In this document: positions 25,538-61,809 of the stretch, piece by piece
How the letters are laid out: each line of letters opens with the position of its first letter
How positions within the stretch are numbered: the stretch's first letter is position 1
Source: Mycobacterium sp. DL440
GTDB taxonomy: Bacteria > Actinomycetota > Actinomycetes > Mycobacteriales > Mycobacteriaceae
Direction of reading: 5' to 3'
Length of the DNA: 64,000 nt
Assembly (NCBI RefSeq): GCF_011745145.1
Contig: NZ_CP050191.1
Span: 3,611,227-3,675,226 of the forward strand
Translations under genes and position numbers: made by a program
The notes under the pieces: model-generated
What the model was told of the DNA's origin: nothing
Database searches by the model: none
Seen by the model: the letters and a program-made list of their open reading frames with translations, nothing else

Positions 25538-26746
25538 ATGACCGAAACCGGTCGATCCACACCACCTGCCGTGCGGGAGCCGTCGGACTGGCACTGGATG
25601 TGGGAGACCTACGTCTGTGGGCTGTGTGTCGCGGCGATCGTCGCGGTGGTTCTGCTGCAACACACTTTCGGTGGCAACGTGCCGGTCGCCTGTACCGGGC
25701 TCGCAGCCATGGTGTTGATTGTTCTGATTTTCGGCCGCAACATCATTCGCGATGCAGATCCGATCGCCGGCCCGGTGCGGGCACGGACGGCAACGTTCGT
25801 GGCAGTGATGATCGGGCTCTGGCTCGTCGCGCTCGTGGCGGCGCCCCCTGCCGTCGCGGCGATTCCGGCGCTCTATCCACTGATCTTCGCGACGCTGCCG
25901 CTGACGGCGGCATTGACGCTGACCTTCCTGGTAACCCTGGCACCGCTGGGCCTTGTCGTGGCAAGCCATGGTTCGGGTTGGCCGAGCCTACCTGCGGTGG
26001 CGGCGGTGACACTCGTCGGCGCGGTGGCCGCCCCGATCATCGGTACCACCATCATGACTACCATGCGCCAGCGCCAGCAGTTGACCGAGACAGTCGCCGA
26101 CCTGGCAGCCAGTCGGGCCCAGACCGCCCGGCTGTCGCGGGAGGCCGGGGTGGCCGCCGAACGGGAGCGGTTGGCCCGCGAGATCCACGACACCCTGGCA
26201 CAGGGGTTCACCAGCATCGTGGCGCTCGCCCAGGCGGTGCAGGCCGAAAGCGACACCGACCCGGCCGCCGCCGCCCGGCATGTGGAGTTGATCCGCAACA
26301 CCGCACGCGACAACCTGGCCGAGGCCCGCACCATGGTCACCCGACTGACCCCGGCCGCGTTGGAGGAGGGCTCCCTGTCTGCCGCACTGCGCCGCCAGTG
26401 CGACCGCCTGGCGGCCGAAACGGGCATCGCCGTCGACGTACGAATCGACGACGATCTGCCGGAGCTCGGCATGGCCACCGACGTGGTGTTGCTGCGTAGC
26501 GCACAGGAGGCGATGACGAACGTGCGCCGGCATTCCCGGGCCAGTGAACTGCAGGTCCGGCTGCAACCTGCGCCGGATGGGGTACGACTTTCCTTGTCCG
26601 ACAACGGTATCGGTCTGCAATCCGATCACGTCGACGGATTCGGCCTGCGCGGTATGCAGGCCCGGCTGGATCAGGTCGGCGGCACCCTGACGCTGTCGGT
26701 GCCCGACGGCGGCGGTGTGCGGGTCGTCGTGGCGGTGCCGGCATGA
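25538..26746 (+). CDS. Sensor histidine kinase, NarL/HisKA_3 type
   Basis: A 402-residue membrane kinase. About five hydrophobic segments occupy residues 25-175, with no large external sensing loop. A coiled coil (QRQQLTETVADLAASRA) leads to the HisKA_3 phospho-acceptor, ERERLAREIHDTLAQGF with His217. The HATPase domain has AQEAMTNVRRHSRA (N box), LSDNGIGL (G1) and GFGLRGMQARLDQVGG (G2). The stop overlaps the response-regulator start by 4 bp. Its signal is not evident; the loops are too short for ligand binding outside, so a membrane-borne signal is plausible. Confidence 0.92.
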   Translation: MTETGRSTPPAVREPSDWHWMWETYVCGLCVAAIVAVVLLQHTFGGNVPVACTGLAAMVLIVLIFGRNIIRDADPIAGPVRARTATFVAVMIGLWLVALVAAPPAVAAIPALYPLIFATLPLTAALTLTFLVTLAPLGLVVASHGSGWPSLPAVAAVTLVGAVAAPIIGTTIMTTMRQRQQLTETVADLAASRAQTARLSREAGVAAERERLAREIHDTLAQGFTSIVALAQAVQAESDTDPAAAARHVELIRNTARDNLAEARTMVTRLTPAALEEGSLSAALRRQCDRLAAETGIAVDVRIDDDLPELGMATDVVLLRSAQEAMTNVRRHSRASELQVRLQPAPDGVRLSLSDNGIGLQSDHVDGFGLRGMQARLDQVGGTLTLSVPDGGGVRVVVAVPA

Positions 26747-27360
26747 CGACCGTCCTGCTGGTCGATGACCATCCGGTGGTCCGTGAGGGGCTGCGCGGGA
26801 TGATCGACGCCGAAGACGATCTGACCGTGATCGGTGAGGCCGGCTCCGGGGCCGAGGCGATCGGACTCGCCGGAAAACTGTGTCCCGATGTCATCTTGAT
26901 GGACCTGCGGATGCCCGGGATCGACGGTGTCACCGCCACTGCGCAGATTCTGGCCGACAATCCTTCGGTCCACATCGTCGTGGTCACCACCTACGAAAGC
27001 GACAGCGACATCCTTCGCGCCGTCGAGGCCGGGGCGACGGGTTACCTGCTCAAGGACGCGTCCCGCGCCGAGCTGGCCCGCGCGGTGCGCGACGCGGCGC
27101 GGGGCAAGACGGTGCTGGCCCCCGGGGTTGCCGACCGATTGGTGAACGCGGTGCGCGCGCCGGCGGTGACGTTGTCGGTACGGGAGGCCGAGGCGCTGGC
27201 CCTGGTGGCCACGGGCGCCACCAACGCCGATATCGGCCGCGCCCTGCACATCAGCGAGGCCACGGTGAAGACGCATCTGCTGCGGGCATTCCACAAACTG
27301 GGAGTATCGGACCGCACGGCGGCCGTGACGAAGGCGATGGCGCTGGGATTGCTCGGCTGA
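26743..27360 (+). CDS. Response regulator, NarL/FixJ type
   Basis: A 205-residue two-domain regulator. The receiver domain has the acidic pocket (VLLVDDHPVV), the phospho-acceptor Asp54 in VILMDLRMPGIDG, the Thr switch in VVVTTYESD and the Lys in YLLKDAS. The LuxR-type helix-turn-helix is LSVREAEALALVATGATNADI, then GRALHISEATVKTHL and FHKLGVSDRTAAVTKA. It forms a cognate pair with the overlapping kinase. A strong hairpin lies just after its stop. Confidence 0.94.
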   Translation: MTTVLLVDDHPVVREGLRGMIDAEDDLTVIGEAGSGAEAIGLAGKLCPDVILMDLRMPGIDGVTATAQILADNPSVHIVVVTTYESDSDILRAVEAGATGYLLKDASRAELARAVRDAARGKTVLAPGVADRLVNAVRAPAVTLSVREAEALALVATGATNADIGRALHISEATVKTHLLRAFHKLGVSDRTAAVTKAMALGLLG

Positions 27361-31302: not shown

Positions 31303-33636
31303 ATGGCAATCGATCCAGGACAGGCTTTTCCGAATCGGCAATCCGATCAGCCCTCAAGCCAACCGTTGATCGGACGAGGATGGTTCCAGGGCGTCGCCCT
31401 GGTGATGATCTTCGGATTCTTCGTCATGGGGCTACTGGCCTATCGCACCTACACCGCCTCGATGCCGATGCCGCAAAAGGTCGTCACGCAATCCGGTGAT
31501 GTGCTGTTCACCGGCGACGACATCACTCGCGGTCAGGAAATCTTCCAGGCTCGTGGACTGCAGGAATACGGGTCGATCGTCGGCCACGGTGCATATCTGG
31601 GGCCCGATTACACAGCCGACTACCTTCGCCGGGCCACCGATGACGTGGCCGCACAATTACGGGCCGGGGGTATGGGTGATACGCACGACGCCGTCGTCGC
31701 AGAATTCCGCACCAACCGCTACGACGCGGCGAACGGCACGCTGGTGTTCACGGACCACCAGGCCAAGGCCTTCGACCGGATCTCGGATCACTACGCCGAG
31801 TTCTTCGGTGAGAGCACCACCAAGAACGGCCTACTCGCCAATCTCATCACCGACCGGGCCGAGATCCACGACCTCACGGCGTTCTTCGCCTGGACCGCAT
31901 GGGCTTCGGCCGCGGAGCGCCCAGGACACAACTACAGCTACACCAACAACTGGCCAGCCGAGTCGCGGGTCGACAACGGTCCCACCGCTCAGCTCATCGT
32001 CTGGTCCACACTCTCGCTGATCATGTTGCTCGGCGGAACCGGCATCATGTTCGCGGTCTACGGACGCTGGAGCCAGAAGATCGGTTGGCACAGCGCCGAG
32101 GCGCCGGCCCTGTCGTTCCGTCAGCCGGGCGAGGTGGCGCTGACCCCGGCCCAACGTTCGGCGATCTGGTTCTTCGCCATCGTCTCGGTCCTGTTCTTGG
32201 CACAGGCATTACTGGGCGGTGCCGTGCAGCACTACCGCGCCGAACTGTCCAACTTCTTCGGCTTTGACCTGGCCGCGATCCTGCCGTACAACCTCGCCCG
32301 CACCTGGCACCTGCAACTGGCGCTGCTCTGGCCGGCGGCCGCCTTTCTGGCCGGCGGCATCTTCCTGGCACCGTTCATCTCACGGCGCGAGCCCAGACGC
32401 CAGCAGTGGCTCTCCTACGGCCTGCTCGGCGCTGTCGTCATCGTGGTGGTGGGATCGCTGGTCACCGAGGCATTGTCGATCTACGGAGTCGTCCCGTCCG
32501 GTTCGCTGTTGTCGCAGCAATGGGAGTACCTGGACCTGCCGCGCCTGTGGCAGATCTTCCTGGTCGTCGGCCTGTTCCTCTGGATCGTCCTGATCTGGCG
32601 CGCCATGAGGTCGCGCCTGGCGGGCGAGTCCAAGATGAACATGCCGTGGGTGTTCTTTTTCTCCGGCCTGGCGATTCCGATGTTCTACGCGGTCGGCCTG
32701 CTCGCCGGCAGCGACACCCACCTGACGGTCGCGGACTTCTGGCGATTCTGGGTGGTGCACCTGTGGGTCGAGGATTTCCTCGAGCTGTTCACCACGGTGA
32801 TGGTGGCCTACATCTTCGTGATGCTGGGCGTGGTCAGCCAGCGGATCGCACTCGGTGTCATCTTCCTCGACATCATCTTGTACTCGGCCGGCGGCGTCAT
32901 CGGCACCATGCATCACCTGTACTTCTCCGGCACCCCGGTCGAACACATGGCTCTCGGCGCGTTCTTCTCCGCGGCCGAGGTCATCCCATTGACCTTCCTC
33001 ACCGTCGAGGCGTGGGCCTTCCTGCAGTTGGGTTCCCGACAATCGTCGGGCGATTCCAAGCCGTTCCCCCATCGGTGGGCGGTGATGTTCCTGGTTGCCG
33101 TGGGGTTCTGGAACTTCGTGGGGGCCGGCATCTTCGGCTTCCTGATCAATCTGCCGATCGTGTCGTACTACCAGATCGGAACGGCACTGACCGCCAACCA
33201 TGCGCATGCCGCCATGATGGGTGTGTACGGCATGTTGGCTGTCGGCCTGGCGATGTTCGCCTACCGCTACGTGATCCCGGCCGACAAGTGGCCCGAGAAG
33301 TGGGCGCGAGTTTCCTTCTGGTGCCTCAATATCGGCCTGGCGTGGATGGTGTTCGCCAGCTTGCTCCCGCTGGGCGTCATGCAGCTCTACCACTCGGTCA
33401 ACGACGGCTACTTCGAGGCCCGCTCGCTGGGCTATCTCACCGAACCCGGCAACGCGGTGATGGAGTGGCTGCGCATGCCCGGTGACGTCATCTTCATCGC
33501 CGGCGGGATCCTGCCCTTCGTCTGGATTTCCTGGCAGGCGTTGCGGCACTTCCGGTCCGGGCCGACCACGCTCGAACTGCCCGAGCAACCGCTCTACATC
33601 GAGCTGTCGGCAGAGCCCGCCGTGGAGTCGCTATGA
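31303..33636 (+). CDS. norB: Quinol-dependent nitric oxide reductase (qNOR)
   Basis: A 777-residue membrane protein of the haem-copper oxidase superfamily, reducing 2 NO to N2O with electrons from quinol. The N-terminal extension (residues about 50-230, after the first helix) is the cytochrome c-like but haem-free domain of qNOR. Predicted metal ligands: His336 in WHLQLALLW (low-spin haem), His486 in HLWVEDFLELF with Glu490 next to FeB, His537-His538 in GTMHHLYF (FeB), His633 and His635 in ANHAHAAMMG (haems). The fingerprint HLWVE replaces the HPEVY of oxidases, so it is not a cytochrome oxidase. It begins a three-gene set with 4-bp overlaps. Start ATG at 31303. Confidence 0.95.
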   Translation: MAIDPGQAFPNRQSDQPSSQPLIGRGWFQGVALVMIFGFFVMGLLAYRTYTASMPMPQKVVTQSGDVLFTGDDITRGQEIFQARGLQEYGSIVGHGAYLGPDYTADYLRRATDDVAAQLRAGGMGDTHDAVVAEFRTNRYDAANGTLVFTDHQAKAFDRISDHYAEFFGESTTKNGLLANLITDRAEIHDLTAFFAWTAWASAAERPGHNYSYTNNWPAESRVDNGPTAQLIVWSTLSLIMLLGGTGIMFAVYGRWSQKIGWHSAEAPALSFRQPGEVALTPAQRSAIWFFAIVSVLFLAQALLGGAVQHYRAELSNFFGFDLAAILPYNLARTWHLQLALLWPAAAFLAGGIFLAPFISRREPRRQQWLSYGLLGAVVIVVVGSLVTEALSIYGVVPSGSLLSQQWEYLDLPRLWQIFLVVGLFLWIVLIWRAMRSRLAGESKMNMPWVFFFSGLAIPMFYAVGLLAGSDTHLTVADFWRFWVVHLWVEDFLELFTTVMVAYIFVMLGVVSQRIALGVIFLDIILYSAGGVIGTMHHLYFSGTPVEHMALGAFFSAAEVIPLTFLTVEAWAFLQLGSRQSSGDSKPFPHRWAVMFLVAVGFWNFVGAGIFGFLINLPIVSYYQIGTALTANHAHAAMMGVYGMLAVGLAMFAYRYVIPADKWPEKWARVSFWCLNIGLAWMVFASLLPLGVMQLYHSVNDGYFEARSLGYLTEPGNAVMEWLRMPGDVIFIAGGILPFVWISWQALRHFRSGPTTLELPEQPLYIELSAEPAVESL

Positions 33637-34259
33637 CCCCGCCCACCACCTCGGCTTGGCTGATGGCCTGCTACGCGTTGGCCTTGGTGGCTGTGGCGTG
33701 GGGATTCGACCTGATGGCGCGGCGGACGTCGATGCGTGCCGCCCGTTGGCGCACCGGGAATTTCACTTATCACGTCGATCACGATGCGTGGCAGTGCCCC
33801 GAAGACCATTGGTTGTGGCCGACCTCGTTCGATCCTGACAACCGGGTGATGCGCTACCGCGCCAAACCGGCGGTCTGCAACGCATGCCCGGTCAAGGCCA
33901 CCTGCACGACATCGGCGCACGGCCGCGAGATCAGTCGGGAGATCGACCCGTGGCCGTATTCCGAAGCCGGGCAGTTCCATCGTGGAATCGCTTGTACAGT
34001 GGCCTGTTTGGCGCTGATCATGGCGTCGGCCATGATGATCGGTCAGCACGGCAGCGGCGATCTGGTGGTGCTGGGTGTGACAGCGCTGATAATCCTCGCC
34101 GCGACAATCCCATTGGCACGTCACCTGTGGGCGAGCCCGGCCAACTCGCCCGATCACCTGCCCCACCGATCCTCCGAGCAGGAACTGACCGCGACGACGG
34201 TCGATCGCTTCGCCACCAAGTGGGGTGGCGGATATGCCGAGCGGAAGGAAGGCCCGTGA
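33633..34259 (+). CDS. Three-helix membrane protein with transposase-like zinc ribbon
   Basis: A 208-residue protein of unrecognised function. Residues 8-28 form one membrane helix. A soluble stretch follows with FTYHVDHDAWQCPEDHWLWP and the motif YRAKPAVCNACPVKATCTTS, then GREISREIDPWPYSEAGQF. The spacing C-x2-C-x5-C plus GRxIxR closely resembles the C-terminal zinc ribbon of IS1182/IS4-type transposases. Two more membrane helices lie at about 115-135 and 142-162, and a polar tail ends the protein. It overlaps norB by 4 bp and the stomatin-like gene by 4 bp, so it belongs functionally to the NO reductase set. A metal or redox role at the membrane is possible. Confidence 0.78.
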   Translation: MTPPTTSAWLMACYALALVAVAWGFDLMARRTSMRAARWRTGNFTYHVDHDAWQCPEDHWLWPTSFDPDNRVMRYRAKPAVCNACPVKATCTTSAHGREISREIDPWPYSEAGQFHRGIACTVACLALIMASAMMIGQHGSGDLVVLGVTALIILAATIPLARHLWASPANSPDHLPHRSSEQELTATTVDRFATKWGGGYAERKEGP

Positions 34260-35059
34260 CTGCACTGTGGTGGTTCATCGGTGTAGTGGGCGCGATCCTG
34301 CTGATCGCGCTCATTGTGCTGTCGTTGAAGGTGCTGCGCGAGTACGAGCGCGGCGTGGTGTTCCGGATGGGTCGGGCCCGCCCGCTGTACGGGCCCGGGC
34401 TGGTGGTGCTGCTGCCGCTGGCCGATCGGATGGTGCGGGTCGATCAACGTGTCATGACGCTGACCATCCCGCCGCAGGAAGTCATCACCCGCGACAACGT
34501 GCCGGCGCGGGTGAACGCCGTGGTGATGTTCCAGGTCACCGATCCGCTGAAAGCGATTATGGCGGTGGAGAACTACGCGGTGGCCACGTCGCAGATCGCC
34601 CAGACCACCCTGCGGTCGCTGCTGGGTCGGGCCGATCTGGACACGCTGCTGGCGCACCGTGAGGATCTCAACATCGACCTGCGCGGCATCATCGAAACCC
34701 AGAGTGCTCGCTGGGGTGTCGAGGTGCGCGTAGTGGAGATCAAGGATGTGGAGATCCCCGAGTCCATGCAGCGGGCGATGGCCCGTGAGGCCGAGGCCGA
34801 ACGCGAACGCCGCGCCAAGGTGATCAATGCCCGCGGTGAACTGCAGGCCTCAGATGAGCTGTCCCAGGCCGCCGAAACCCTGTCGAAGAATCCGGCCTCT
34901 CTTCAGCTCAGATACCTGCAGACATTGCTTGAGCTTGGCGCCGACCAGAATTCGACGGTGGTGTTCCCGCTGCCGGTCGACATCATCACGCCGTTCTTGA
35001 AGAACCCCGCCAGTCTGGGCGAGGCACTGGCCAATGGATTGGCGAAGCGCCGCGACTAG
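34256..35059 (+). CDS. Stomatin/SPFH-domain membrane protein
   Basis: A 267-residue slipin-type protein: one N-terminal membrane helix (residues 3-26), then the SPFH/PHB domain (LREYERGVVFRMGRARPLYG, RVDQRVMTLTIPPQEVITRD, VMFQVTDPLKAIMAVENY, QTTLRSLLGRADLDTLLAHRE) and a charged coiled coil (AMAREAEAERERRAKVINA) that drives oligomerisation. The GTG at 34256 overlaps the preceding TGA by 4 bp and has a GAAGGAAGG ribosome-binding site. Such proteins scaffold membrane complexes or control their turnover; here the partner is probably the NO reductase. Confidence 0.92.
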   Translation: MTALWWFIGVVGAILLIALIVLSLKVLREYERGVVFRMGRARPLYGPGLVVLLPLADRMVRVDQRVMTLTIPPQEVITRDNVPARVNAVVMFQVTDPLKAIMAVENYAVATSQIAQTTLRSLLGRADLDTLLAHREDLNIDLRGIIETQSARWGVEVRVVEIKDVEIPESMQRAMAREAEAERERRAKVINARGELQASDELSQAAETLSKNPASLQLRYLQTLLELGADQNSTVVFPLPVDIITPFLKNPASLGEALANGLAKRRD

Positions 35060-35066
35060 TCGCCGT

Positions 35067-35690
35067 TCAGCCACTCAGTTGCGCGACACACCGGTCGGAT
35101 TCGACGAACGGGTGCAAGCCGTCAACGGTGACCGGCGCATCCCAGGCCGCCATGGCCCCTTGCATCAGGCCCAGGTGGATCGGGCAGATCACCTCCGGGC
35201 GCACCTTCGCGATTTCCAGAAACGGACAGTGGCGCAACGCGATTTCGGTGCCTGCGACGTCGGACTCAGGGGCGAAGCCGAGGTCGTCGAGCAGGTCCAC
35301 CAACTTCTCCACCGGGTTTCGTTCGGCCGCGTCGGATCGGGCGGCCGCCAACCGCGCACCCAACCTGCGCCCGGCCGCACTGGTGCCCGCGCCCGGTCCC
35401 GCGCCGGCTGCGACCGATTCGGCCAATGCCTCGGCGAGCAGTCGGTAGTGCCGCGGACCGCCGGGGTCCATGCCGCCCACCGCCGCGAACAGCTGTGGTG
35501 GGCGCCCGGGCTTGTCGTGCGACCCGGCGACCCGGCGGATCTGGTGCTGCTCGAGGAGGGCGTCGAGGTGGAAGCGCACGGTGTTCGCGTGCACTTCGAG
35601 TCGTTCGGCGATGGCCGCGATGCTCATCGGCGCATCGGCGTCGCGCAACACCGTCAGGACGTCGCGGCGTCGCCCACGGGGCGCGTTCAT
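35067..35690 (-). CDS. HTH regulator with C-terminal Cys motif (SufR-like, probable Fe-S sensor)
   Basis: A 207-residue protein. Residues 8-60 form an ArsR/SufR-type winged helix ([21 protein letters not shown], then [23 protein letters not shown]). The C-terminal domain has three conserved-looking cysteines, Cys155 (RHCPFLEI), Cys169 (VICPIHLG) and Cys201 (DRCVAQL), arranged as in SufR-like repressors that ligate an Fe-S cluster. An Fe-S regulator beside an NO reductase suggests NO sensing, but this is inferred. Its ATG overlaps the stop of the ferredoxin gene by 4 bp (co-translated), and it converges with the stomatin gene 7 bp away. Confidence 0.82.
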
Positions 35691-36031
35691 GACTGTTGCG
35701 GTGGCAGGCTCGCCACCAGCGGTGCGTCCGCACTCACCGGCCCCAGCTTGGCCGCCCCGCCCGGCGAGCCCAACGGCCCGTCCTGTCCGGGCAGCGTCTC
35801 GGAGAAGAACGCCGCGTTGTCATCCTTGTAGGCGTCGAACTCGTCAGGCAGGTCATCCTCGTAGTAGATGGCCTCGACCGGGCAGACGGGTTCGCAGGCG
35901 CCGCAGTCCACGCATTCGTCGGGATGGATGTAGAGCGCGCGCGCACCCTCGTAGATGCAGTCGACCGGACATTCCTCGACGCACGCGCGATCCATCACAT
36001 CCACGCATGGCTTGCCGATCACGTATGTCAT
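35687..36031 (-). CDS. Second 7Fe ferredoxin, FdxC-like
   Basis: A 114-residue ferredoxin with the same cysteine pattern as FdxC ([17 protein letters not shown] and [12 protein letters not shown]) and closely similar through residue 60. It differs in its longer C-terminal tail ([18 protein letters not shown]). ATG at 36031 aligns exactly with the FdxC start. It leads a two-gene unit with the SufR-like regulator and is divergent from ctaD across 48 bp that contain an AT-rich inverted repeat. It may carry electrons within this module or be sacrificial under NO stress. Confidence 0.93.
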
Positions 36032-36040
36032 GGCCCATAG

Positions 36041-36065
36041 TTTATACAAGGTTAGTTTGTAAAAA
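36041..36065. promoter_or_regulatory. AT-rich inverted repeat between ferredoxin-regulator unit and ctaD
   Basis: Arms TTT-A-TACAA (36041-36049) and TTGTA-A-AAA (36057-36065) are symmetric around 7 bp except for one A-A position. It begins 9 bp from the ferredoxin start codon and ends 14 bp from the ctaD start codon, so a bound regulator would block both promoters. The adjoining SufR-like protein is the obvious candidate. Confidence 0.55.
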
Positions 36066-36079
36066 CTGGAAGTGACGCG

Positions 36080-37777
36080 ATGACGGCACACACAACCTCA
36101 TCAATCAGCACCGACCTCACCAGTACGCGGCCATTCCCGCCACGTCTGGGGCCACGCGGAAATCTGGTCTACAAGCTCATCACGACCACCGATCACAAGC
36201 TGATCGGAATCATGTACATGGTCGCCTGCTACATCTTCTTCTTCACCGGCGGATTGATGGCGTTGTTCATCCGCACCGAACTCGCCGAGCCGGGGCTGCA
36301 GTTTCTGTCCACCGAGCAGTACAACCAGTTGTTCACCATGCACGGCACTGTGATGCTGTTGTTCTACGCCACCCCGATCGTGTTCGGATTCGCCAACCTC
36401 GTACTGCCCCTGCAGATCGGCGCGCCCGACGTAGCGTTCCCGAGGCTCAACGCGCTGTCATTCTGGTTGTTCGTGTTCGGCGCACTCATCGCCCTCGCCG
36501 GCTTCATCACCCCCGGTGGCGCCGCAGACTTCGGCTGGACCGGCTACGCCCCCCTCAGCAACGCCATCCACTCCCCCGGCGCCGGCGGCGACCTGTGGAT
36601 CTTGGGACTTGCCGTGGCCGGTCTGGGCACCATCCTCGGCGCCGTCAACATGATCACCACCGTGGTGTGTATGCGCGCACCCGGCATGGTGATGTTCCGG
36701 ATGCCGATCTTCACCTGGAACATCCTCGTCACCAGCATTCTGGTGCTGATGGTGTTCCCGCTGCTGACCGCCGCATTGTTCGGCCTGGCCGCCGACCGGC
36801 ACCTCGGTGCGCACATCTACGACCCTGCCAATGGCGGAGCCATCCTGTGGCAGCACCTGTTCTGGTTCTTCGGCCATCCCGAGGTCTATGTGGTGGCGTT
36901 GCCGTTCTTCGGCATCGTCACCGAGATCATCCCGGTGTTCTCCCGCAAGCCGCTGTTCGGCTACACCACACTGGTCTACGCGACGATCAGCATCGGCGCC
37001 CTGTCGATGGCGGTCTGGGCCCACCACATGTTCGCAACGGGAGCCGTTCTGCTGCCGTTCTTTTCGCTGATGTCGTACTTCATCGCGGTGCCGACCGGTA
37101 TCAAGTTCTTCAACTGGATCGGCACGATGTGGAAGGGACAGTTGACCTTTGAAACGCCCATGTTGTTCTCGGTGGGCTTCATGGTCACGTTCCTGCTCGG
37201 TGGGCTCTCCGGCGTCATGCTGGCCAGCCCGCCGATCGACTTCCACGTCACCGACACCTACTTCTTGATCGCACACTTCCACTACGTGCTGTTCGGTACC
37301 ATCGTGTTCGCCTCGTTCGGAGGGGTGTACTTCTGGTTCCCGAAGATGACCGGCCGGCTGCTCGACGAACGCCTGGGCAAGATCCATTTCTGGTTGACGT
37401 TCATCGGTTTTCACACCACATTCCTGGTGCAGCACTGGCTGGGTAACGAGGGCATGCCGCGGCGTTATGCCGACTACCTGCCGTCGGACGGTTTCACCAC
37501 GCTCAATGTGGTTTCCAGTATCGGCGCCTTCATCCTGGGTGTTTCGATGCTGCCGTTCGTCTGGAATGTCTTCAAGAGCTGGCGCTATGGCGAGCCCGTC
37601 GTTGTCGACGACCCGTGGGGCTACGGCAATTCACTGGAGTGGGCCACCAGTTGCCCGCCGCCGCGGCACAACTTCACCGAGATACCCAGAATCCGTTCCG
37701 AGCGGCCGGCTTTCGAGTTGCACTACCCACACATGGTCGAGCGGATGCGGGCCGAGTCGCACGCGGGCCGGCACTGA
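36080..37777 (+). CDS. ctaD: Cytochrome c oxidase subunit I (aa3 type)
   Basis: A 565-residue, 12-helix A-type haem-copper oxidase subunit. Visible features: [18 protein letters not shown] (haem a His and proton channel), [15 protein letters not shown], the Cu-B ligand and cross-linked Tyr in [25 protein letters not shown] (two Cu-B His), [17 protein letters not shown] (haem ligands). The C-terminal tail includes [16 protein letters not shown] as in actinobacterial CtaD. No other oxidase subunit (ctaC, ctaE, qcr) is nearby, so this is probably an extra ctaD copy that uses partners encoded elsewhere. Its placement next to qNOR and an Fe-S regulator suggests use under NO or low-oxygen stress. 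Confidence 0.93.
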
Positions 37778-37790
37778 GTCGGGCAGCAGA

Positions 37791-38339
37791 TCAGGCCTGT
37801 TTCAGCGCCTCGATCTCGAGGGTGATGGTGACCTTGTCGCCGACGACGGTGCCGCCGGTCTCCAGCGGCATGTCGATGTCGATGCCGAAGTCCTTGCGGT
37901 TCAACACCACCGAGGCCTCGAAACCGGCGACCGCACCCTGGCCCATGCCGGGGTTCACGCCGTTGTACTCGAGCTTGAGGGAAACCGGCTTGGTCACGCC
38001 CTTGAGGGTGAAGTCGCCGTCGACGATGTAGTCGTCCCCATCAGGCCGCACGCCGGTCGAGACGAAGGTGGCGGTCGGGTGGTTGTCGGCGTCGAAGAAG
38101 TCTGCGGACCGCACGTGCGCGTCGCGCTGCTCGTTGCTGGTGTCGATGGAGTTGACGTCGATGGTGGCGCTGACCGACGGCGTGCCGTCCTCGCCGACGG
38201 TGATCGCGCCACTGAACGTCTCAAAGCTGCCGCGGACCTTGCTCACCATCAGGTGGCGGACCGAGAAGTTGATCGACGAGTGCACGGGGTCGATTGCCCA
38301 GGTGCCTGCGGTCAGATCGGTGGCTACTGCTGCGGTCAT
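37791..38339 (-). CDS. YceI-family isoprenoid-binding-type protein
   Basis: A 182-residue lipocalin-like YceI protein: AGTWAIDPVHSSINFSVRHL, VRGSFETFSGAITV, ATIDVNSIDTSNEQRDAHVR, SADFFDADNHPTATF, GDFTLKGVTKPVSLKL, FEASVVLNRKDFGI. Family members bind polyisoprenoids or quinone-like lipids. There is no signal peptide, so it is cytoplasmic. ATG at 38339 has an AAGGAG ribosome-binding site and fits the family N-terminus. It converges with ctaD, 13 bp apart, and may be an independent unit. Confidence 0.93.
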   Translation of the reverse strand: MTAAVATDLTAGTWAIDPVHSSINFSVRHLMVSKVRGSFETFSGAITVGEDGTPSVSATIDVNSIDTSNEQRDAHVRSADFFDADNHPTATFVSTGVRPDGDDYIVDGDFTLKGVTKPVSLKLEYNGVNPGMGQGAVAGFEASVVLNRKDFGIDIDMPLETGGTVVGDKVTITLEIEALKQA

Positions 38340-38618
38340 GGTGTCTCCTTGGGTTGTGCGGCCGGTCGATCCGGCACCTTCACTCGACACAACCGGACTG
38401 CAGTCCGAATCCATTCCCGAATTCGCGGATTTCTCCTCAATCTTGAATCCCGCAGTGCATCATGCGCTGGCCAGCAACTCTCGCCACTGTTACTTTCGAG
38501 ATCGGATGCACTGGTAGGCGGCTAGTTTCTTTCACCAAGGCCTAGGCCATAGCAACAAGCCTTCTCGTCACCAGCAAGAAGCCGTAGTCCGCGAGCGACC
38601 GCAGGATGCCGCCGAGCG
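38340..38618. other. Gene-free gap with perfect 14-bp palindrome
   Basis: This 279-bp gap between the YceI gene and the fbiC stop holds no convincing gene. It contains the perfect palindrome CGGACTGCAGTCCG (38394-38407), 55 bp upstream of the YceI start, and a small GCCGG/CCGGC hairpin at 38361-38375. The palindrome is a possible operator for the YceI gene. The downstream half (38450-38600) is relatively AT-rich and unstructured. Confidence 0.5.
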
Positions 38619-54604: not shown

Positions 54605-55254
54605 CAGACTCCCTCCTGAACCCGACGCGGCGGCACGGTCAGTTGAAAAGGTTGCAGTCCAACGGATTCAGCCGGCGGCCCGGCCATCATGAGTTGTGCC
54701 ACGTCGTCGACCGAGGCCAGGGCCGGAAGCGTTGCAGCTACCGCAGCGACGACCGGTGAGTATGGCGAGCCCCGGTCGGCTAGCGCTCGCGCAACCACAC
54801 CGATCGGTACCCGGTACTTGGCGAGCAGCCGCCGGCCCGCATCGGGCGCGACCGTGGCGGCGAACTCCAGCACCACCGGAAGATGATCGGGCGCCTCACC
54901 TTTCGGCATTTCAACCCCCGCGGCCCGGTAGGCCTGGGTGAACTCGACCATGTCCGCGCCGCGGTTTCGGGTATCCCCGGACGTCCAGTACGTCAGGAGC
55001 ATGGTGCAGCGCTTCTGCAGGTCGAAGGTCTCGACATACTCCTGCTGTAGCTCCATGGCCGGTCGAAGGCTCAGCCCGACAACGGTTTCGCCGAGCAGCG
55101 CCCTGGGCTCACCGGTGACGTGATCCAGCAGGCGGGCCGCGGCCTGCAGCCGGTCGGCATGGCCGTCGCCCGGGTAGGCGAGCATCAGAGACGCCGCCTG
55201 CCACACCAGGCGGTCCTGCATCGTGTTGTCACGGGTTCGGTTGCGACGCTTCAT
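54604..55254 (-). CDS. narJ: Nitrate reductase assembly chaperone
   Basis: A TorD/NarJ-type chaperone of about 216 residues that holds NarG while molybdenum cofactor and the FS0 cluster are inserted. Matches: DRLVWQAASLMLAYPGDGHAD, LQQEYVETFDLQKRCTMLLTYW, GDTRNRGADMVEFTQAYRAAGV, PDHLPVVLEFAATV. The narH stop overlaps the ATG at 55254 by 1 bp; a GTG at 55257 is an equally good start, with GGAGG 6 nt upstream. The order G-H-J-I is as in M. tuberculosis. Confidence 0.95.
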   Translation of the reverse strand: MKRRNRTRDNTMQDRLVWQAASLMLAYPGDGHADRLQAAARLLDHVTGEPRALLGETVVGLSLRPAMELQQEYVETFDLQKRCTMLLTYWTSGDTRNRGADMVEFTQAYRAAGVEMPKGEAPDHLPVVLEFAATVAPDAGRRLLAKYRVPIGVVARALADRGSPYSPVVAAVAATLPALASVDDVAQLMMAGPPAESVGLQPFQLTVPPRRVQEGV

Positions 55255-56903
55255 CACTGATCACCTCCCGGGAACATTCCCGACGGTACTCCCCTGCCGT
55301 CCCAGTTGAGTAGGTTGACCCGCGACGGCCGTTCAGCATTGGCGGCCATGCCCCCGCTGGTCTGCCGGTGTTGTAGCGCGTGGAACGTCTCCACCGCCAC
55401 CGGGACCGGCCCACCGCTGGCCTCACCGAACGGGCCGGACTCGTACATCCCTGGCCCGCCCTCGAAGGACAGCGAGCAACCGGGCTCCTCCGCGCCGGGT
55501 ATCGCCTCCGAGCTGTAAGCCGTCGGAATGACGTAGCGCTCCTCATATTTCGCGATGGCCAGCAGCCGGTACATCTCATAGATCTGCTCCTCGGTCATCC
55601 CGACCGCGGCCGGAATGTGCGGCTGGGTCTGACGACCGAGATTGACGTCGCGCATGTAGGACCGCATCGCCGCCAGCCGACGCAATACTCCTTCGACAAC
55701 CGCGGTGTCCCCCGCCGTGAACAATCCGGCCAGATACTCGATCGGGATGCGCAATGCTTCCAGCGCCCCGAAGAGATTGCCGACGTCCTCGCCGTCGTGC
55801 CCGTCCCGGCTGACCGCGTCGACCACCGGCGACAGCGGCGGGATGTACCACACCATCGGCACCGTCCGGAACTCCGGATGCAACGGCAGTGCAACGCCGT
55901 AGGTGTGGATGAGCTTGTAGACCGGTGAACGCTGCGCGGCCTCGATCCACTCGTCGGAGATGCCCTCGGCCCGGGCCCCGGCGATCACCTCCGGGTCGGT
56001 TGGGTCGAGCAGGATCTGCCGCTGCGCCTCGTAGAGGTCTTTCTCGTCGGGCACCGACGCAACCTCCAGCACGCGGTCGACGTCGTAGAGCACCAGCCCG
56101 AGGTAGCGCAATCGGCCGACGCACGTTTCAGAGCACACCGTGGGCAGCCCGACCTCGAGGCGCGGATAGCACAGTGTGCACTTCTCGGCCTTGCCGGTCT
56201 TGTGGTTGAAATACACCTTCTTGTAAGGGCATCCGGATACGCACATGCGCCAACCGCGGCAGCGGTCCTGGTCGACCAGGACGATGCCGTCCTCGGACCG
56301 TTTGTACATGGCCCCGGACGGGCAGGACGCCACACAGGACGGGTTCAGGCAGTGCTCGCAGATCCGGGGCAGGTAGAACATGAAGGTCTGCTCGAGTTCG
56401 AGCTTGATCTTCTCGCTGACCTGCTTGAGGATCGGGTCCCCCGGGACGATCTCCGGTGAGCCCGCCAGATCGTCATCCCAGTTCGCCGACCATGACACCT
56501 TCATCGGTTTACCGGTGATCAGGCTGCGCGGCGGCGCGGTGGGAAAGTGCTCACCGAGCGGTGCCGACGTCAAGTTCTCGTAGTCGTAGGTCCACGGCTC
56601 GTAGTAGTCGTCGATGGACGGCAGTTTGGGGTTCGCGAAGATTCTGGCCAGCTTGGCCAGCCGGCCGCCGTCGCGTAGCCGCAGCCGGCCGCGCCGGTCC
56701 AGCTTCCACCCCCCGCGCCACTTCTCCTGATCCTCATATGTGCGCGGATAGCCTTGCCCCGGACGGGTCTCGACGTTGTTGAACCAGACATATTCGGTGC
56801 CGGCCCGGTTGGTCCAGGCTTGTTTGCAGGTCACCGAACAGGTCTGACACCCGATGCACTTGTCGAGGTTCATCACCATCGCCATCTGGGCCATGACCTT
56901 CAC
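55254..56903 (-). CDS. narH: Respiratory nitrate reductase, beta (Fe-S) subunit
   Basis: A 549-residue electron-transfer subunit with four clusters. Cluster cysteines appear in CIGCQTCSVTCKQAW, CEHCLNPSCVASCP and CRGWRMCVSGCPYKKVYF, then CTLCYPRLEVGLPTVCSETC. The Trp inside CRGWRMC replaces a Cys and marks the [3Fe-4S] cluster, as in E. coli NarH. The start is GTG at 56903, overlapping the narG stop by 4 bp. Confidence 0.96.
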   Translation of the reverse strand: MKVMAQMAMVMNLDKCIGCQTCSVTCKQAWTNRAGTEYVWFNNVETRPGQGYPRTYEDQEKWRGGWKLDRRGRLRLRDGGRLAKLARIFANPKLPSIDDYYEPWTYDYENLTSAPLGEHFPTAPPRSLITGKPMKVSWSANWDDDLAGSPEIVPGDPILKQVSEKIKLELEQTFMFYLPRICEHCLNPSCVASCPSGAMYKRSEDGIVLVDQDRCRGWRMCVSGCPYKKVYFNHKTGKAEKCTLCYPRLEVGLPTVCSETCVGRLRYLGLVLYDVDRVLEVASVPDEKDLYEAQRQILLDPTDPEVIAGARAEGISDEWIEAAQRSPVYKLIHTYGVALPLHPEFRTVPMVWYIPPLSPVVDAVSRDGHDGEDVGNLFGALEALRIPIEYLAGLFTAGDTAVVEGVLRRLAAMRSYMRDVNLGRQTQPHIPAAVGMTEEQIYEMYRLLAIAKYEERYVIPTAYSSEAIPGAEEPGCSLSFEGGPGMYESGPFGEASGGPVPVAVETFHALQHRQTSGGMAANAERPSRVNLLNWDGRGVPSGMFPGGDQ

Positions 56904-59900
56904 TGGTACTTCACCTCCTGCGAGCGGCGGCGAACCACCGTCACTTCATCACGCTGATTTCCGGTGGGGCCGAGATAATTCCAGGCAAACGAGTGTTGCG
57001 CATACCCGCCGGCCAGATGACTGGGCTTGACCAACAGCCGGGTCAGCGAATTGTGAATGCCGCCGCGGGTTCCGGTCGTTTCACTCAGAGGGACGTCGAT
57101 GGTCCGCTCCTGAGCGTGGTAGACGTACACCACCCCTTCGGGCATGCGGTGACTGACGACGGCGCGGCACACCAGCACCCCGTTGCGGTTCACCGCCTCG
57201 ATCCAATCGTTGTCTTTCACTTCGATCTTCGCCGCATCCAACGGACTCATCCACATGGTGGGGCCTCCGCGTGACAGCGAGAGCATGAACAGGTTGTCCT
57301 GGTACTCCGAGTGGATCGACCACTTGGAATGCGGGGTCAGGTAGCGCACCGTCAGGCCGATGCCGTCACGCTGCCCCACCTGGGATTCGCCGAACAACCG
57401 CGCCATGTCCAGCGGAGGCCGGTAGATCGGCAGCTGCTCCCCGAGTTCTTCCAGCCAGTCATGATCGACGTAGAAATGCATTCGCCCGGTGAGCGTGTGG
57501 AACGGCTTGAGCTCCTCGATGTTCACCGTGAACGGCGCATAGCGGCGCCCGCCGGTCTCGCTGCCCGACCACTCCGGGCTGGTGATCACCGGCACCGGTC
57601 TGGCCTGGGTGTCGGCGTAGGTGATCCGGCGTTCCTCACTGCCCTCGGCCAGGTGCACCAACCTGCGCCCGGTGCGCTTCTCCAACTCCTTGAAGCCCTC
57701 CACGGCCAGACGGCCGTTCGAGGTGCCCGACAGTGCGAGGATGACGTCGGACATCCGTTCCGCCGTGGTGATCGCGGGCCGGCCCTGTGCCGCACCGGAA
57801 TCCATCACACCGAACTTGGCGGCGAGCTCGGACACCTCCTGCTCGGGATGGGTGGTGACGCCCTTGGTGGTCAGGCCCAGACTCTCGACCAGCGGGCCGA
57901 GCGCGGACCACTTTTCCGCGATCGCCGTGTAGTCACGCTCCACGACCGCCAGCGGGCCCATGGTCTTACCTGGCACCGGGGTCTCGCCGGTGGTCCGCCA
58001 ATCATGCTCGGTGCCACCGGGATAGGCCATCGCACCAGGGGTGTCGTGCTGCAGCGTTCCCATCACCACATCGGTGCGGGTGCCCAGGTGCCGGGCGGCG
58101 AGAGCACTGAAGGCCCGCGCGATCGCGCCGAAAGCCTCGAAGTCGGAACGGGTTTCCCAAGGGGGGTCTACAGCCGGACTGAACGCGTGCACGTACGGAT
58201 GCATGTCCGTGCTGGACAGATCGGCCTTCTCGTACCAGGTCGCCGCGGGAAGCACCACATCCGAGAGCAGTGTCGTCGACGTCATGCGGAAGTCGATGGA
58301 CATCAGCAGGTCGAGCTTTCCCTCCGGGATGTCCTCGGTCCAGGCGACATCGTTGGGCCGCAAGTCCTCCCCGGTGGGCTCGGCCTGCACGTTCGAGGTC
58401 GTGCCAAGCAGGTGCCGCAGGAAGTACTCGTTGCCCTTGCTGGAGGAGCCCAGCAGGTTGGCCCGCCACACATTCAGAACGCGCGGCCAGTTGACCGGAT
58501 TGTCCGGATCGGTGACCGCGAGTTTCAGCCCGCCACTTGCCAATTGCTCGGCCACGTAATCGGGCACTTCCTGCCCCGCGGCCTTGGCCTCGTCCACCAC
58601 ATCCAGGCTGGACCGGTCGAACTGCGGGAAGAACGGCGTCCACCCCATCGCCACTGCCGAGGTCAGCACGTCCATCGTGTGCTTGTCGCGGAACCGACCC
58701 CGCCCGACCGGGCTGGACAGGGCGTCGGCCCGGTAACCGTCGTACCGCCACTGGTCGGTGTGGGCATACCAGTATGACGTGCCCGCCATCTGCCGCGGCG
58801 GACGCGACCAGTCGGTGCCCATCGCCATCGCGGCCCATCCGGTCACCGGGCGGCACTTCTCCTGCCCCACGTAGTGCGCCCAGCCGCCGCCGTTGCGGCC
58901 CATCGAACCGGTCAGCAGCAGCAGCGCGAGCACCGCCCGGTAGGTGGCGTCGCCGTGGAACCACTGGCAGATACCGGCACCCATGATGATCATCGACCGG
59001 CCGCCGGATTCCTCGGCATTGCGGGCGAATTCGCGTGCCACCCGGATGGCCTGGCCCGCAGACACTCCGGTGATCTGCTCCTGCCACGCCGGAGTGTAGG
59101 GCCGGGTGGCGTCGTCGTAACCGGTGGGCCAGTCGCCGGGCAGGCCGGGACGGTGCACGCCGTACTGGGCCAGCATCAGGTCGAACACGGTGCACACCAG
59201 GTGCTCGCCGACCCGCCGCACCGGCACGCCCCGCTGCAGGGTCGCGCCGGCTCCGTCCACCGTGTCGAAACGCGGCAGCGTGATCTCGGCGGTCTCGAAG
59301 ATGTCCCCCAGAACGGTCAGGGCCGGGGTCAGGTTTTCGAGGTCGAGGTTCCACTTGCCGACGCCATCTTTGCCGTAGCGGAATCCGAGCGAGCCCTGTG
59401 GCACCGCGACGCTGTTGCTGACACCATCGAGCAGCACCGGCTTGAACGCCGCATTCTCCTGCTCTGCTATTACCCCGCCGAGATCCGCTGCGGTGAGGTT
59501 CTTCCCGGGCACCAGCACACCATCGCGCTCTTCGAGCTTGACCAGGAACGGTAGATCCGTGAACTGACGCACGTAGTCGACGAAGAACGGAACACGGTTC
59601 TGCACAAAGCATTCGTCGAGGATGACGTGGCCCATCGCCATCGCCAGCGCACCGTCGGTGCCCGCCGCGCACGGCATCCACTCATCGGCGAACTTGGTGT
59701 TGTCGGCGTAATCCGGGCTGACCGTGACCACTTTCGTGCCCCGGTAACGGACCTCGGCCATCCAGTGCGCATCGGGTGTGCGCGTCACAGGGACATTGGA
59801 TCCCCACATCATCAGATACGACGCGTCCCACCAGTCCCCCGACTCCGGCACATCGGTCTGATCGCCGAACACCTGTGGGGAGGCCACCGGCAGATCGGCA

Positions 59901-60589
59901 TACCAGTCGTAGAACGACGTCATCACCCCACCGATGAGCTCCACGAACCGGGACCCGGCCGCGAACGACACCATCGACATCGCCGGGATCGGCGAGAACC
60001 CGGCCACCCGGTCCGGCCCGTAAGTCTTGATCGTGTGCACGTGGGCGGCAGCGATCATCTCGGTGGCCTCGGACCAGGTCACCCGGACCAGACCACCCTT
60101 GCCGCGGGCCTGGTGATATCGCTTGCGGCGCACGGGATCACCCTGGATGTCGGCCCAGGCCAACACGGGATCCTTCAGACGGTCCTTGGCTTCCCGGTAC
60201 ATGTCGACCAGCACGCCACGCGCGTACGGGTACCGCACCCGCGTCGGCGAATAGGTGTACCAGGAGAACGCCGCGCCGCGCGGGCAACCACGAGGCTCGT
60301 ACTCGGGCCGGTCGGGCCCGACCGATGGGTAGTCGGTCTCCTGGGTTTCCCAGGTGATGATCCCGTCCTTGACATATATCTTCCAGGAACACGATCCGGT
60401 GCAGTTCACCCCGTGCGTGGAGCGCACCACCTTGTCGTGGCTCCACCGGTCGCGGTAGAACACGTCGCCCTCACGGCCGCCCTTGCGGGTGACTGTACGC
60501 AGGTCGCCGGAGAACTCGCCGGGGGTGAAGAAGCGGCCACTGCGCTCGAGCAGTTCCTCGATTGATCCGCCGACGTGGGGCTTGCTCAT
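56900..60589 (-). CDS. narG: Respiratory nitrate reductase, alpha (Mo-bisMGD) subunit
   Basis: A 1229-residue catalytic subunit reducing nitrate to nitrite at the cytoplasmic face. The FS0 cluster site is HGVNCTGSCSW (His-x3-Cys-x3-Cys) with a distal Cys in EPRGCPRGAAF. The molybdenum-ligand Asp is in YDWYADLPVASPQ, followed by GDQTDVPESGDWW. Other typical stretches are YGPDRVAGFSPIPAMSMVSF and NLLGSSSKGNEYFLRHLLGT. ATG at 60589 gives [20 protein letters not shown]; the same frame stays open further upstream but reads across narK and is not coding. The narK stop overlaps the ATG by 1 bp. Confidence 0.97.
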   Translation of the reverse strand: MSKPHVGGSIEELLERSGRFFTPGEFSGDLRTVTRKGGREGDVFYRDRWSHDKVVRSTHGVNCTGSCSWKIYVKDGIITWETQETDYPSVGPDRPEYEPRGCPRGAAFSWYTYSPTRVRYPYARGVLVDMYREAKDRLKDPVLAWADIQGDPVRRKRYHQARGKGGLVRVTWSEATEMIAAAHVHTIKTYGPDRVAGFSPIPAMSMVSFAAGSRFVELIGGVMTSFYDWYADLPVASPQVFGDQTDVPESGDWWDASYLMMWGSNVPVTRTPDAHWMAEVRYRGTKVVTVSPDYADNTKFADEWMPCAAGTDGALAMAMGHVILDECFVQNRVPFFVDYVRQFTDLPFLVKLEERDGVLVPGKNLTAADLGGVIAEQENAAFKPVLLDGVSNSVAVPQGSLGFRYGKDGVGKWNLDLENLTPALTVLGDIFETAEITLPRFDTVDGAGATLQRGVPVRRVGEHLVCTVFDLMLAQYGVHRPGLPGDWPTGYDDATRPYTPAWQEQITGVSAGQAIRVAREFARNAEESGGRSMIIMGAGICQWFHGDATYRAVLALLLLTGSMGRNGGGWAHYVGQEKCRPVTGWAAMAMGTDWSRPPRQMAGTSYWYAHTDQWRYDGYRADALSSPVGRGRFRDKHTMDVLTSAVAMGWTPFFPQFDRSSLDVVDEAKAAGQEVPDYVAEQLASGGLKLAVTDPDNPVNWPRVLNVWRANLLGSSSKGNEYFLRHLLGTTSNVQAEPTGEDLRPNDVAWTEDIPEGKLDLLMSIDFRMTSTTLLSDVVLPAATWYEKADLSSTDMHPYVHAFSPAVDPPWETRSDFEAFGAIARAFSALAARHLGTRTDVVMGTLQHDTPGAMAYPGGTEHDWRTTGETPVPGKTMGPLAVVERDYTAIAEKWSALGPLVESLGLTTKGVTTHPEQEVSELAAKFGVMDSGAAQGRPAITTAERMSDVILALSGTSNGRLAVEGFKELEKRTGRRLVHLAEGSEERRITYADTQARPVPVITSPEWSGSETGGRRYAPFTVNIEELKPFHTLTGRMHFYVDHDWLEELGEQLPIYRPPLDMARLFGESQVGQRDGIGLTVRYLTPHSKWSIHSEYQDNLFMLSLSRGGPTMWMSPLDAAKIEVKDNDWIEAVNRNGVLVCRAVVSHRMPEGVVYVYHAQERTIDVPLSETTGTRGGIHNSLTRLLVKPSHLAGGYAQHSFAWNYLGPTGNQRDEVTVVRRRSQEVKYQ

Positions 60590-61809
60590 CAATGGGCCTC
60601 CTTGGCCGACTCGGGCTCGTGGGCATGTAGTCGCAGTGCGGTGTAGCCGAACGCCACCAATGCCGTCGCCACCAACAGCACAAGCCCGACCGAGTAGTCG
60701 TGATCCACAGCGTCGTACGTCGCGCCCATCACCAACGGCGGGAAGTAACCACCCAAACCGCCTGCGGCAGCGACGATCCCGGTGACCGAGCCCACTTCCT
60801 TGGCGGGTGCCCGCCTGGCCACCCAGGCGAACACGCCACCGGTGCCGATGCCCAGGAAGATCGCCAAGGCGATGAAGGTCGACGCCGACCACACATCCGG
60901 GGGCGGCTGGAACATCGCGATGAAGGCGAGTACTGCGGTTCCGGCGAAGGAGGTGAGCACCACGAACTTGGGGGGTATCCGGTCCGAGAGCGCACCGCCG
61001 ATCGGCCGGGCCAGCACTGCGGCCAACGCAAATCCCGCGGTGCGACTGCCGGCTTCGACGGCGGAGAATTCGTAGACGTTCTTGATGTAGGTCGGCAGGT
61101 AGTTGCTGAATGCCACGAATCCGCCGAAGACCACCGCGTACAGGAACGACATCTCCCATGTCACCGGAAGTTTGAGCGCGGACTTGAGTTTCGGCAGCAC
61201 CGGGTCGGTATTCGGCTGGAATGCCGGCGAATTGCGCATCGCCACCATGCACAACACCGCGGTCAGCGCCAGGGCCGCCGCGATGATGAGGTGGGTGGGA
61301 AACAGTCCGAACCACCGCACAAATCTCGGCGTGAAGAACGCCGACAGCGCCGTACCGACCATTCCCATGCCGAACACACCGGTCGCGAAGCCGCGCCGCG
61401 ATGCGTCGTACCAGTTGTTGGCGAACGGGATTCCGACGGCGAAGATGGTGCCGGCAATGCCCAGGAAGAATCCGCACACCAACAACATGGGGTAAGACCT
61501 GGCCTCGCCGGCCGCCCCGACCGCCAATACCGGCACGATCGAGGCCAGCGTCACCGCGAGGAACATGGTGCGACCGCCGTACCGATCGGTCAGCGCCCCG
61601 ACCGCGATGCGGCCGAGCGATCCGACCAATATCGGCGTGGCGACGAGCATCGAGGCTTGCGTGGCGCTGAGTCTCATGTCGCCGGCGTAGGTGGTGGACA
61701 GCGGGCCGATCATGTTCCAGGCCCAGAAATTGATGGCCGAGACCCAGGTGGCCAGCAACAGATTCATGCTCTGCCCTTGGCCCAGGTACGGCGTGCTTGC
61801 CGTGGTCAC
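60589..61809 (-). CDS. narK: Nitrate/nitrite transporter, MFS NarK type
   Basis: A 406-residue 12-helix major facilitator. Nitrate-signature-like segments include [13 protein letters not shown] and [19 protein letters not shown]; the intracellular loop motif [13 protein letters not shown] is also present. It exchanges nitrate for nitrite or takes up nitrate with protons. GTG at 61809 gives [20 protein letters not shown]. In M. tuberculosis narK2 is elsewhere; here the transporter leads the narGHJI operon. Three palindromes lie upstream. Confidence 0.94.

Follow-up and report, generated by a model that had tools for sequence, protein, structure and literature searches.

Which of the genes next to an actinobacterial nitric oxide (NO) reductase belong to it, and what might they do for it? 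The question is raised by a stretch of 64,000 nucleotides from Mycobacterium sp. DL440 (contig NZ_CP050191.1, positions 3,611,227 to 3,675,226), in the following called the window, in which norB is followed by genes for a membrane protein, here named Znr, and a stomatin, and then by a regulator, a ferredoxin, an oxidase subunit and a YceI protein. A preliminary description had taken this array for a six-gene NO detoxification and respiration module inserted between two genes that we take to be fadH and fbiC (the M. tuberculosis names at the flanks are likewise presumed). Open reading frames and domain matches confirm the genes and the 4-bp overlaps that it had named. The explanation that we favour, and that we judge, as one joint assessment of the whole, to be rather probable, is that of two neighbouring but separate modules: A, the norB-znr-stomatin operon, and B, the set of the sufR-like gene, fdx2, ctaD2 and yceI. 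Module A consists of the following features (aa, amino acids; TM, transmembrane; qNOR, quinol-type NO reductase).

31303..33636, plus strand: norB, qNOR of 777 aa with a fused NorC-like cytochrome c-like domain and an HLWVE motif
33633..33636, plus strand: norB/znr overlap, 4 bp, ATGA
33633..34259, plus strand: znr, 208 aa, three TM segments, predicted-cytoplasmic C-x26-C-x2-C-x5-C domain that is IS1182-transposase-like
34256..34259, plus strand: znr/stomatin overlap, 4 bp, GTGA
34256..35059, plus strand: stomatin (SPFH/Band 7), 267 aa

By family, NorB is an ordinary qNOR and would convert NO into N2O at the membrane. It matches the solved qNORs over its full length (E 7.5e-151 across residues 25-741), its FeB ligand motifs HLWVE and HH align to the solved enzyme, and it scores above the Pfam cut-offs for the NorB cytochrome c-like domain PF22085 (E 3.9e-56, 190.7 bits against 29) and for COX1 (180.4 bits against 34.8). 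These features, together with the fused cytochrome c-like domain, are shared with the bacterial enzymes of the A. xylosoxidans, N. meningitidis and G. stearothermophilus kind. The norB of those species is usually reported alone, whereas norB in the window has two coupled partners, znr and the stomatin gene.

This coupling was followed through 151 genomes of the Mycobacteriaceae (in the GTDB sense; the same set for the znr, norB and stomatin searches as far as listed). At E 0.001, znr gives matches in eight of them. Seven have E-values of 2.4e-58 or better; the remaining genome, G105, matches at E 7.8e-4 across residues 63-107 only and was set aside as a Cys-domain match. norB is found in 7/151 genomes, and this set is identical to the seven with a strong znr. 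Stomatin-type proteins are more widely distributed (43/151 at E 1e-60), and the seven best of them (68-100% identity; the next has 64%) are exactly those encoded beside znr in the seven norB genomes. In addition, a genome_contigs scan gave 189 stretches; 180 of these were confirmed, and the analysis covered the best 80 of them, without the most distant 100. All 80 loci have tblastn matches (E 1e-5) to norB, znr and stomatin, including L016 and L019, which end within the stomatin gene. The znr-stomatin junction is a 4-bp overlap in 70/80 loci; at the norB-znr junction, 23 loci overlap by 4 bp, 53 have a gap of 1-8 nt and 4 show other values. For these counts the in-frame start nearest to the preceding stop was chosen, which favours tight spacing. 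norB-znr-stomatin is a tight three-gene operon and a true unit. Of the module proposed previously, it is this part that stands, with znr and stomatin as near-invariant partners of norB. Among the matches listed in our literature searches, judged by titles and the beginnings of abstracts, no paper on the operon was found. Two loci carry damaged norB copies: in L063 the match is split into two pieces, and in L050 only residues 546-773, the last third, are matched beside znr-stomatin, on a chromosome that also holds the full operon L040.

The downstream genes behave differently. They comprise the following features.

35067..35690, minus strand: sufR-like winged-helix regulator with conserved C155, C169 and C201; separate module
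35687..36031, minus strand: fdx2, second FdxA-type ferredoxin, 4-bp overlap with the sufR-like gene; separate module
36039..36067, no strand: 29-bp dyad AGTTTATACAA-N7-TTGTAAAAACT between the divergent fdx2 and ctaD2; putative operator
36080..37777, plus strand: ctaD2, second aa3 oxidase subunit I; separate module
37791..38414, minus strand: yceI, a neighbour, in relatives often without norB

In the 80 norB-znr loci, tblastn finds fdx2 in only 10, ctaD2 in 9, yceI in 5 and fadH in 6; a sufR-like gene is matched in 9, five of these at 30-34% identity and hence perhaps other regulators. The idea that all six genes are conserved together with norB therefore fails. Even at the fadH site, the position between stomatin and fdx2 is taken by the sufR-like gene in the window, L012 and L017, and by other genes in L013, L014, L015 and L018. 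The proposed insertion into the fadH-fbiC interval is, on the other hand, supported. fadH is matched in 19 of 41 relatives including the own genome (18 besides), the stretch downstream of it was fetched for 17 of the 18, and 16 stretches extend to fbiC. Thirteen of these 16 have no norB, znr, stomatin, sufR, fdx2 or ctaD2 in the interval (4 of the 13 do have yceI), and L156 holds the complete set of both modules. Two further relatives carry module B without norB, znr or stomatin at the site: L155 as sufR-fdx2-ctaD2-yceI (with only a partial fdx2 match, at 56% identity), and L162 as yceI-truncated haemoglobin-sufR-fdx2-cupin-ctaD2. In L155 the stop codons of fadH and sufR are 17 bases apart, which gives the clean site without the 3.9-kb operon. 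yceI stands at fadH without norB in 6/17 stretches. Module B is thus a separate set, found beside module A only in some species, and with these counts and the two relatives the six-gene module was rejected.

Could all these genes nevertheless form one NO-respiration module, with NorB controlled or supplied by the regulator, the ferredoxin and CtaD2? fdx2 and ctaD2, in some cases also sufR, do lie near norB in L036 and in the fadH-site loci, and module B of L162 includes genes of NO type, the truncated haemoglobin and the cupin, which carries DUF2249, a domain known from NO regulons. However, the sufR-like gene and fdx2 lie on the opposite strand and read towards the norB operon, with ctaD2 divergent from fdx2; because the orientations are opposed, operon and sufR/fdx2 are not one transcript. 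Moreover, there is no copy of the operator before norB at up to 3 mismatches, L155 and L162 do without norB at the site, and qNOR is established to take its electrons from quinol and therefore needs no ferredoxin. Together with the scarcity of fdx2 in the norB-znr loci, this makes a joint module quite improbable, and we keep to two separate modules.

What, then, is Znr? Its four-Cys domain resembles that of the IS1182-family transposases (NF033551; PF13751). Against nine such domains cut from loci L120-L129 (9/10 loci passed the motif filter), hhalign gives 99.5% with 40% identity over 67 profile columns. The NCBIfam model NF033551 itself matches at E 3.5e-11, restricted to residues 35-106 and with 42.7 bits against a cut-off of 270. 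Znr is thus not a full-length IS1182 transposase; it has 208 aa and three TM segments and matches in the Cys domain alone. The four Cys are kept in 317 of 321 Znr rows (rows overlap in origin), and 319 have a hydrophobic stretch at the N-terminal as well as at the C-terminal TM position. A transposase remnant was rejected as an identity for Znr, since the protein is conserved, its gene is tightly spaced behind norB, and the rows retain the TM stretches. Among 72,556 plasmid records, znr has zero matches. Two database searches returned 955 and 2630 Znr-family proteins at E 0.001 or better, possibly including true transposases; public names of members read 'Transposase DDE domain-containing protein', 'transposase' and, for many, 'hypothetical protein'. 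The members named as transposases include P0011, P0044, P0074 and P0133, though the Cys domain alone is common to both. IS1182-type transposases are generally widespread, and from this broad spread as against the narrow one of znr we infer that evolution ran from transposase to znr.

In the protein of the window, hydrophobic segments are located at 10-28, 118-136 and 144-162. Residues 1-6 are uncharged and the loop 137-143 has one acidic residue, while the Cys domain and the tail, on the opposite side, are charged; this pattern suggests a cytoplasmic Cys domain. An AlphaFold2 model (25 sequences, pLDDT 71.8) has a long N-terminal helix, a domain rich in strands (45-103) and two further helices, and the Cys domain is modelled as strands with one short helix. 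Because of the IS1182-like match and this strand-rich model, the metal of Znr is most likely Zn rather than an Fe-S cluster. Znr could also be read as something like a membrane-bound WhiB, with a [4Fe-4S] cluster that acts as an NO or redox sensor or as an electron carrier at NorB. Indeed, the C-x2-C-x5-C spacing is that of WhiB proteins, and Pfam WhiB gives a weak match (E 0.0096), although with 16.9 bits against a gathering threshold of 23.6 Znr falls outside the family. The hhalign probability for WhiB (five domains from the own genome, with 5/9 loci passing) reaches 77% over 30 columns only, so that the IS1182 match is much stronger; in addition, the WhiB fold is helical, unlike the predicted strands of Znr. 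We consider a WhiB-like Znr unlikely and continue with Zn as the preferred metal.

The third gene of the operon encodes a stomatin. Its product matches Pfam Band_7 (E 6.5e-38, 131 bits against a cut-off of 23.6) and is nearest to stomatin, with E 1.1e-62 to the human stomatin chains. At about 1e-62, this links it to the stomatin/SPFH cages (human stomatin, PH1511, QmcA), from which it differs in being partnered with norB-znr; the usual partner of a bacterial stomatin is NfeD. The stomatin would build an oligomeric cage or raft around NorB and Znr. Membrane proteins enclosed by stomatin have a precedent (PMC12407830). Znr and stomatin might, alternatively, be general stress-envelope proteins that hitchhike in the operon without acting on NorB. 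It would fit that many genomes lacking norB have stomatins at 46-64% identity, yet znr tracks norB in 7/7 genomes and is still adjacent to it in three distant actinobacteria, which leaves hitchhiking very improbable, even more so than the joint module above. Znr and stomatin most likely assemble or stabilise NorB. If they serve assembly, they would be functional analogues of NorQ and NorD, for which no sequence relation is expected; PMC9976466 describes these as FeB-insertion chaperones of cNOR.

Beyond the family, we turned to 396 genomes of the Actinomycetota. The qNOR domain PF22085 is found in 11 of them and znr (E 1e-6) in 16. Seven of the 16 znr matches are strong, and all seven have an adjacent norB: four in the genus of the window and, further off, G329 (norB match spread over two frames), G351 and G487. 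In all 3 genomes outside the Mycobacteriaceae where both genes were detected, they are thus neighbours. Of 39 genomes in the family to which G351 belongs, two have PF22085, namely G351 itself and G329. Another seven of the 16 have matches of 36-70 residues to the Cys domain only, most of them in long transposase-like open frames. In Rubrobacteraceae-type genomes (L136, L137, L139), norB-znr or znr lies near cydAB/cydDC-like or narK-narG-like genes, which were named by sight.

On the reading that follows from all this, the four-Cys domain of the 3-TM protein Znr, derived from a transposase and facing the cytoplasm, would carry a metal, most likely Zn, and Znr would bind NorB as an assembly or stability partner. 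In its fullest form, an actinobacterial qNOR would possess a dedicated accessory subunit or metallochaperone, made of a domesticated IS1182 Cys domain on a 3-TM scaffold, and a stomatin cage that encloses NorB; this form we put forward tentatively, as a serious possibility that falls somewhat short of probable. Several observations weigh against the favoured reading as a whole. znr is absent from four of the 11 qNOR genomes, two of them with 33-35% and the other two with 57-58% identity to the NorB of the window, so qNOR does not always depend on Znr. The remaining two znr genomes, G450 and G502 (86% and 77% complete), contain znr pieces, and norB was not found in them. No stomatin was found beside norB-znr in the stretches of 9 to 15 kb fetched from G329, G351 and G487, which makes znr the more constant partner of norB. 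The Znr model is of moderate confidence and its fold is unmatched among solved structures, as Foldseek returned 209 matches at E 10 and none at E 0.001 or better, and the metal could be an Fe-S cluster after all. A search of the Znr profile against solved sequences gave four weak matches only, the best at E 0.03. Concerning the qNORs without znr, in a NorB tree of 28 rows (L131 failed the motif and length filter, and L134 was left out) the two 57-58% rows adjoin the znr-bearing row L136, and a loss of znr in this lineage is therefore possible.

How is module B held together, if not by norB? Its members are recognised as follows. The sufR-like protein matches Pfam HTH_20 (E 6e-9), and C155, C169 and C201 are invariant in an alignment of 7 rows; no SufR model is among its NCBIfam matches, so that the label denotes architecture only, HTH plus conserved Cys. 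Fdx2 (NCBIfam FdxA_Actino, E 2.4e-53) and YceI (PF04264, E 7.9e-53) are above the respective cut-offs. CtaD2 (NCBIfam aa3 subunit I, E 1.8e-303) exceeds both the CtaD and the actinobacterial aa3 cut-offs and is 88% identical over 553 residues to a CtaD encoded elsewhere in the genome. The dyad recurs upstream of fdx2 in L012-L015, L017 and L018 with 0-1 mismatch (the spacer of L014 is one shorter; the dyad alignment was made without L015), and in L023, L024 and L026 with 1-2 mismatches and a 6-nt spacer; there are 2 mismatches in L156 and L162, and in L155, none. In the whole genome (6.4 Mb, up to 3 mismatches) there is one other site, and the reversed control pattern gives 0. This second site ends about 40 bp before a truncated-haemoglobin-like gene (L154:5181-5653; G000:C1:1613181); a small membrane protein gene lies divergently on its other side. 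The product shares 67% identity with one member of our alignment A4, the profile of which finds a group III truncated haemoglobin as its best match (2ig3, E 2.3e-5), followed weakly by other truncated haemoglobins. With one member as single sequence, the PDB search gave nothing at E 0.01 and Pfam no globin, so the group III assignment applies to the family profile and, through the relation to its member, to the product. The A4 family is present in 13/80 norB-znr loci by clustering, and additionally in L018.

Module B can thus plausibly be seen as a separate NO-stress set. Its genes would share the dyad as operator; the sufR-like protein probably binds it, though some dyad-bearing loci have no sufR-like gene beside fdx2. 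As a side observation, L023 (11488-12651), L024 and L026 encode a beta-keto acid cleavage enzyme fused to a 4Fe-4S ferredoxin domain (by Pfam on L023 only), and a dyad-like site with 3-4 mismatches lies just upstream of the fused gene in all three.

The regulation of norB itself differs by lineage. Of the 80 loci (up to 20 kb each; domains checked on one member per family), 36 encode a GAF sensor kinase and 29 a NarL-type response regulator, the latter including three loci at the fadH site; 24 have the two together, and 36 loci have a nitroreductase gene. Many of the loci L020-L085, for example L034, L062, L073, L074 and L083, have the norB operon near GAF kinase, NarL-type regulator, nitroreductase, USP and WS/DGAT genes, surroundings that we take to be a DosRS neighbourhood. 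A DosR-like dyad, GGRNCN4GNYCC, occurs upstream of norB in 30/79 loci, where a crude 2-mer shuffle predicts 3.5 (the pattern was chosen post hoc), and with a published-style 20-base DosR consensus the best sites are mostly within the shuffle range; DosR-type control in other mycobacterial loci is suggestive only. Before norB of the window, the best site shares 11 positions with the 20-base consensus, a level that the shuffles of other loci also reach, and none of the window-type loci L012-L018 has a good DosR-like site upstream of norB in either scan. At 25538-27360 the window encodes a histidine kinase (402 aa) and a response regulator (205 aa) with a 4-bp overlap, a possible local regulator; the kinase has sub-cut-off matches to the MctS, UhpB, LiaS and NarX models.

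What would such an NO reductase be used for? The route from nitrate to N2O that the preliminary description had envisaged lacks its middle step. narG and narH, the only two nar genes searched, are present in the window at 55254-61477, both above cut-offs, but searches of the genome with the NirK and NirS models gave no match at E 0.001. This leaves the route unsupported and makes detoxification of NO from outside, or from side reactions, likelier than denitrification.

In summary, the qNOR of this locus is ordinary and has an undescribed, closely linked partner family with a transposase domain, accompanied by a dedicated stomatin. The large Znr family, labelled hypothetical or transposase where it is named, nonetheless tracks NO reductase. 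If Znr serves NorB, this would explain how an NO-detoxifying enzyme is matured and protected in actinobacteria, including some opportunistic mycobacteria. The operon would then also represent a rare reuse of a transposase domain in respiration and would provide a natural client for a bacterial stomatin.

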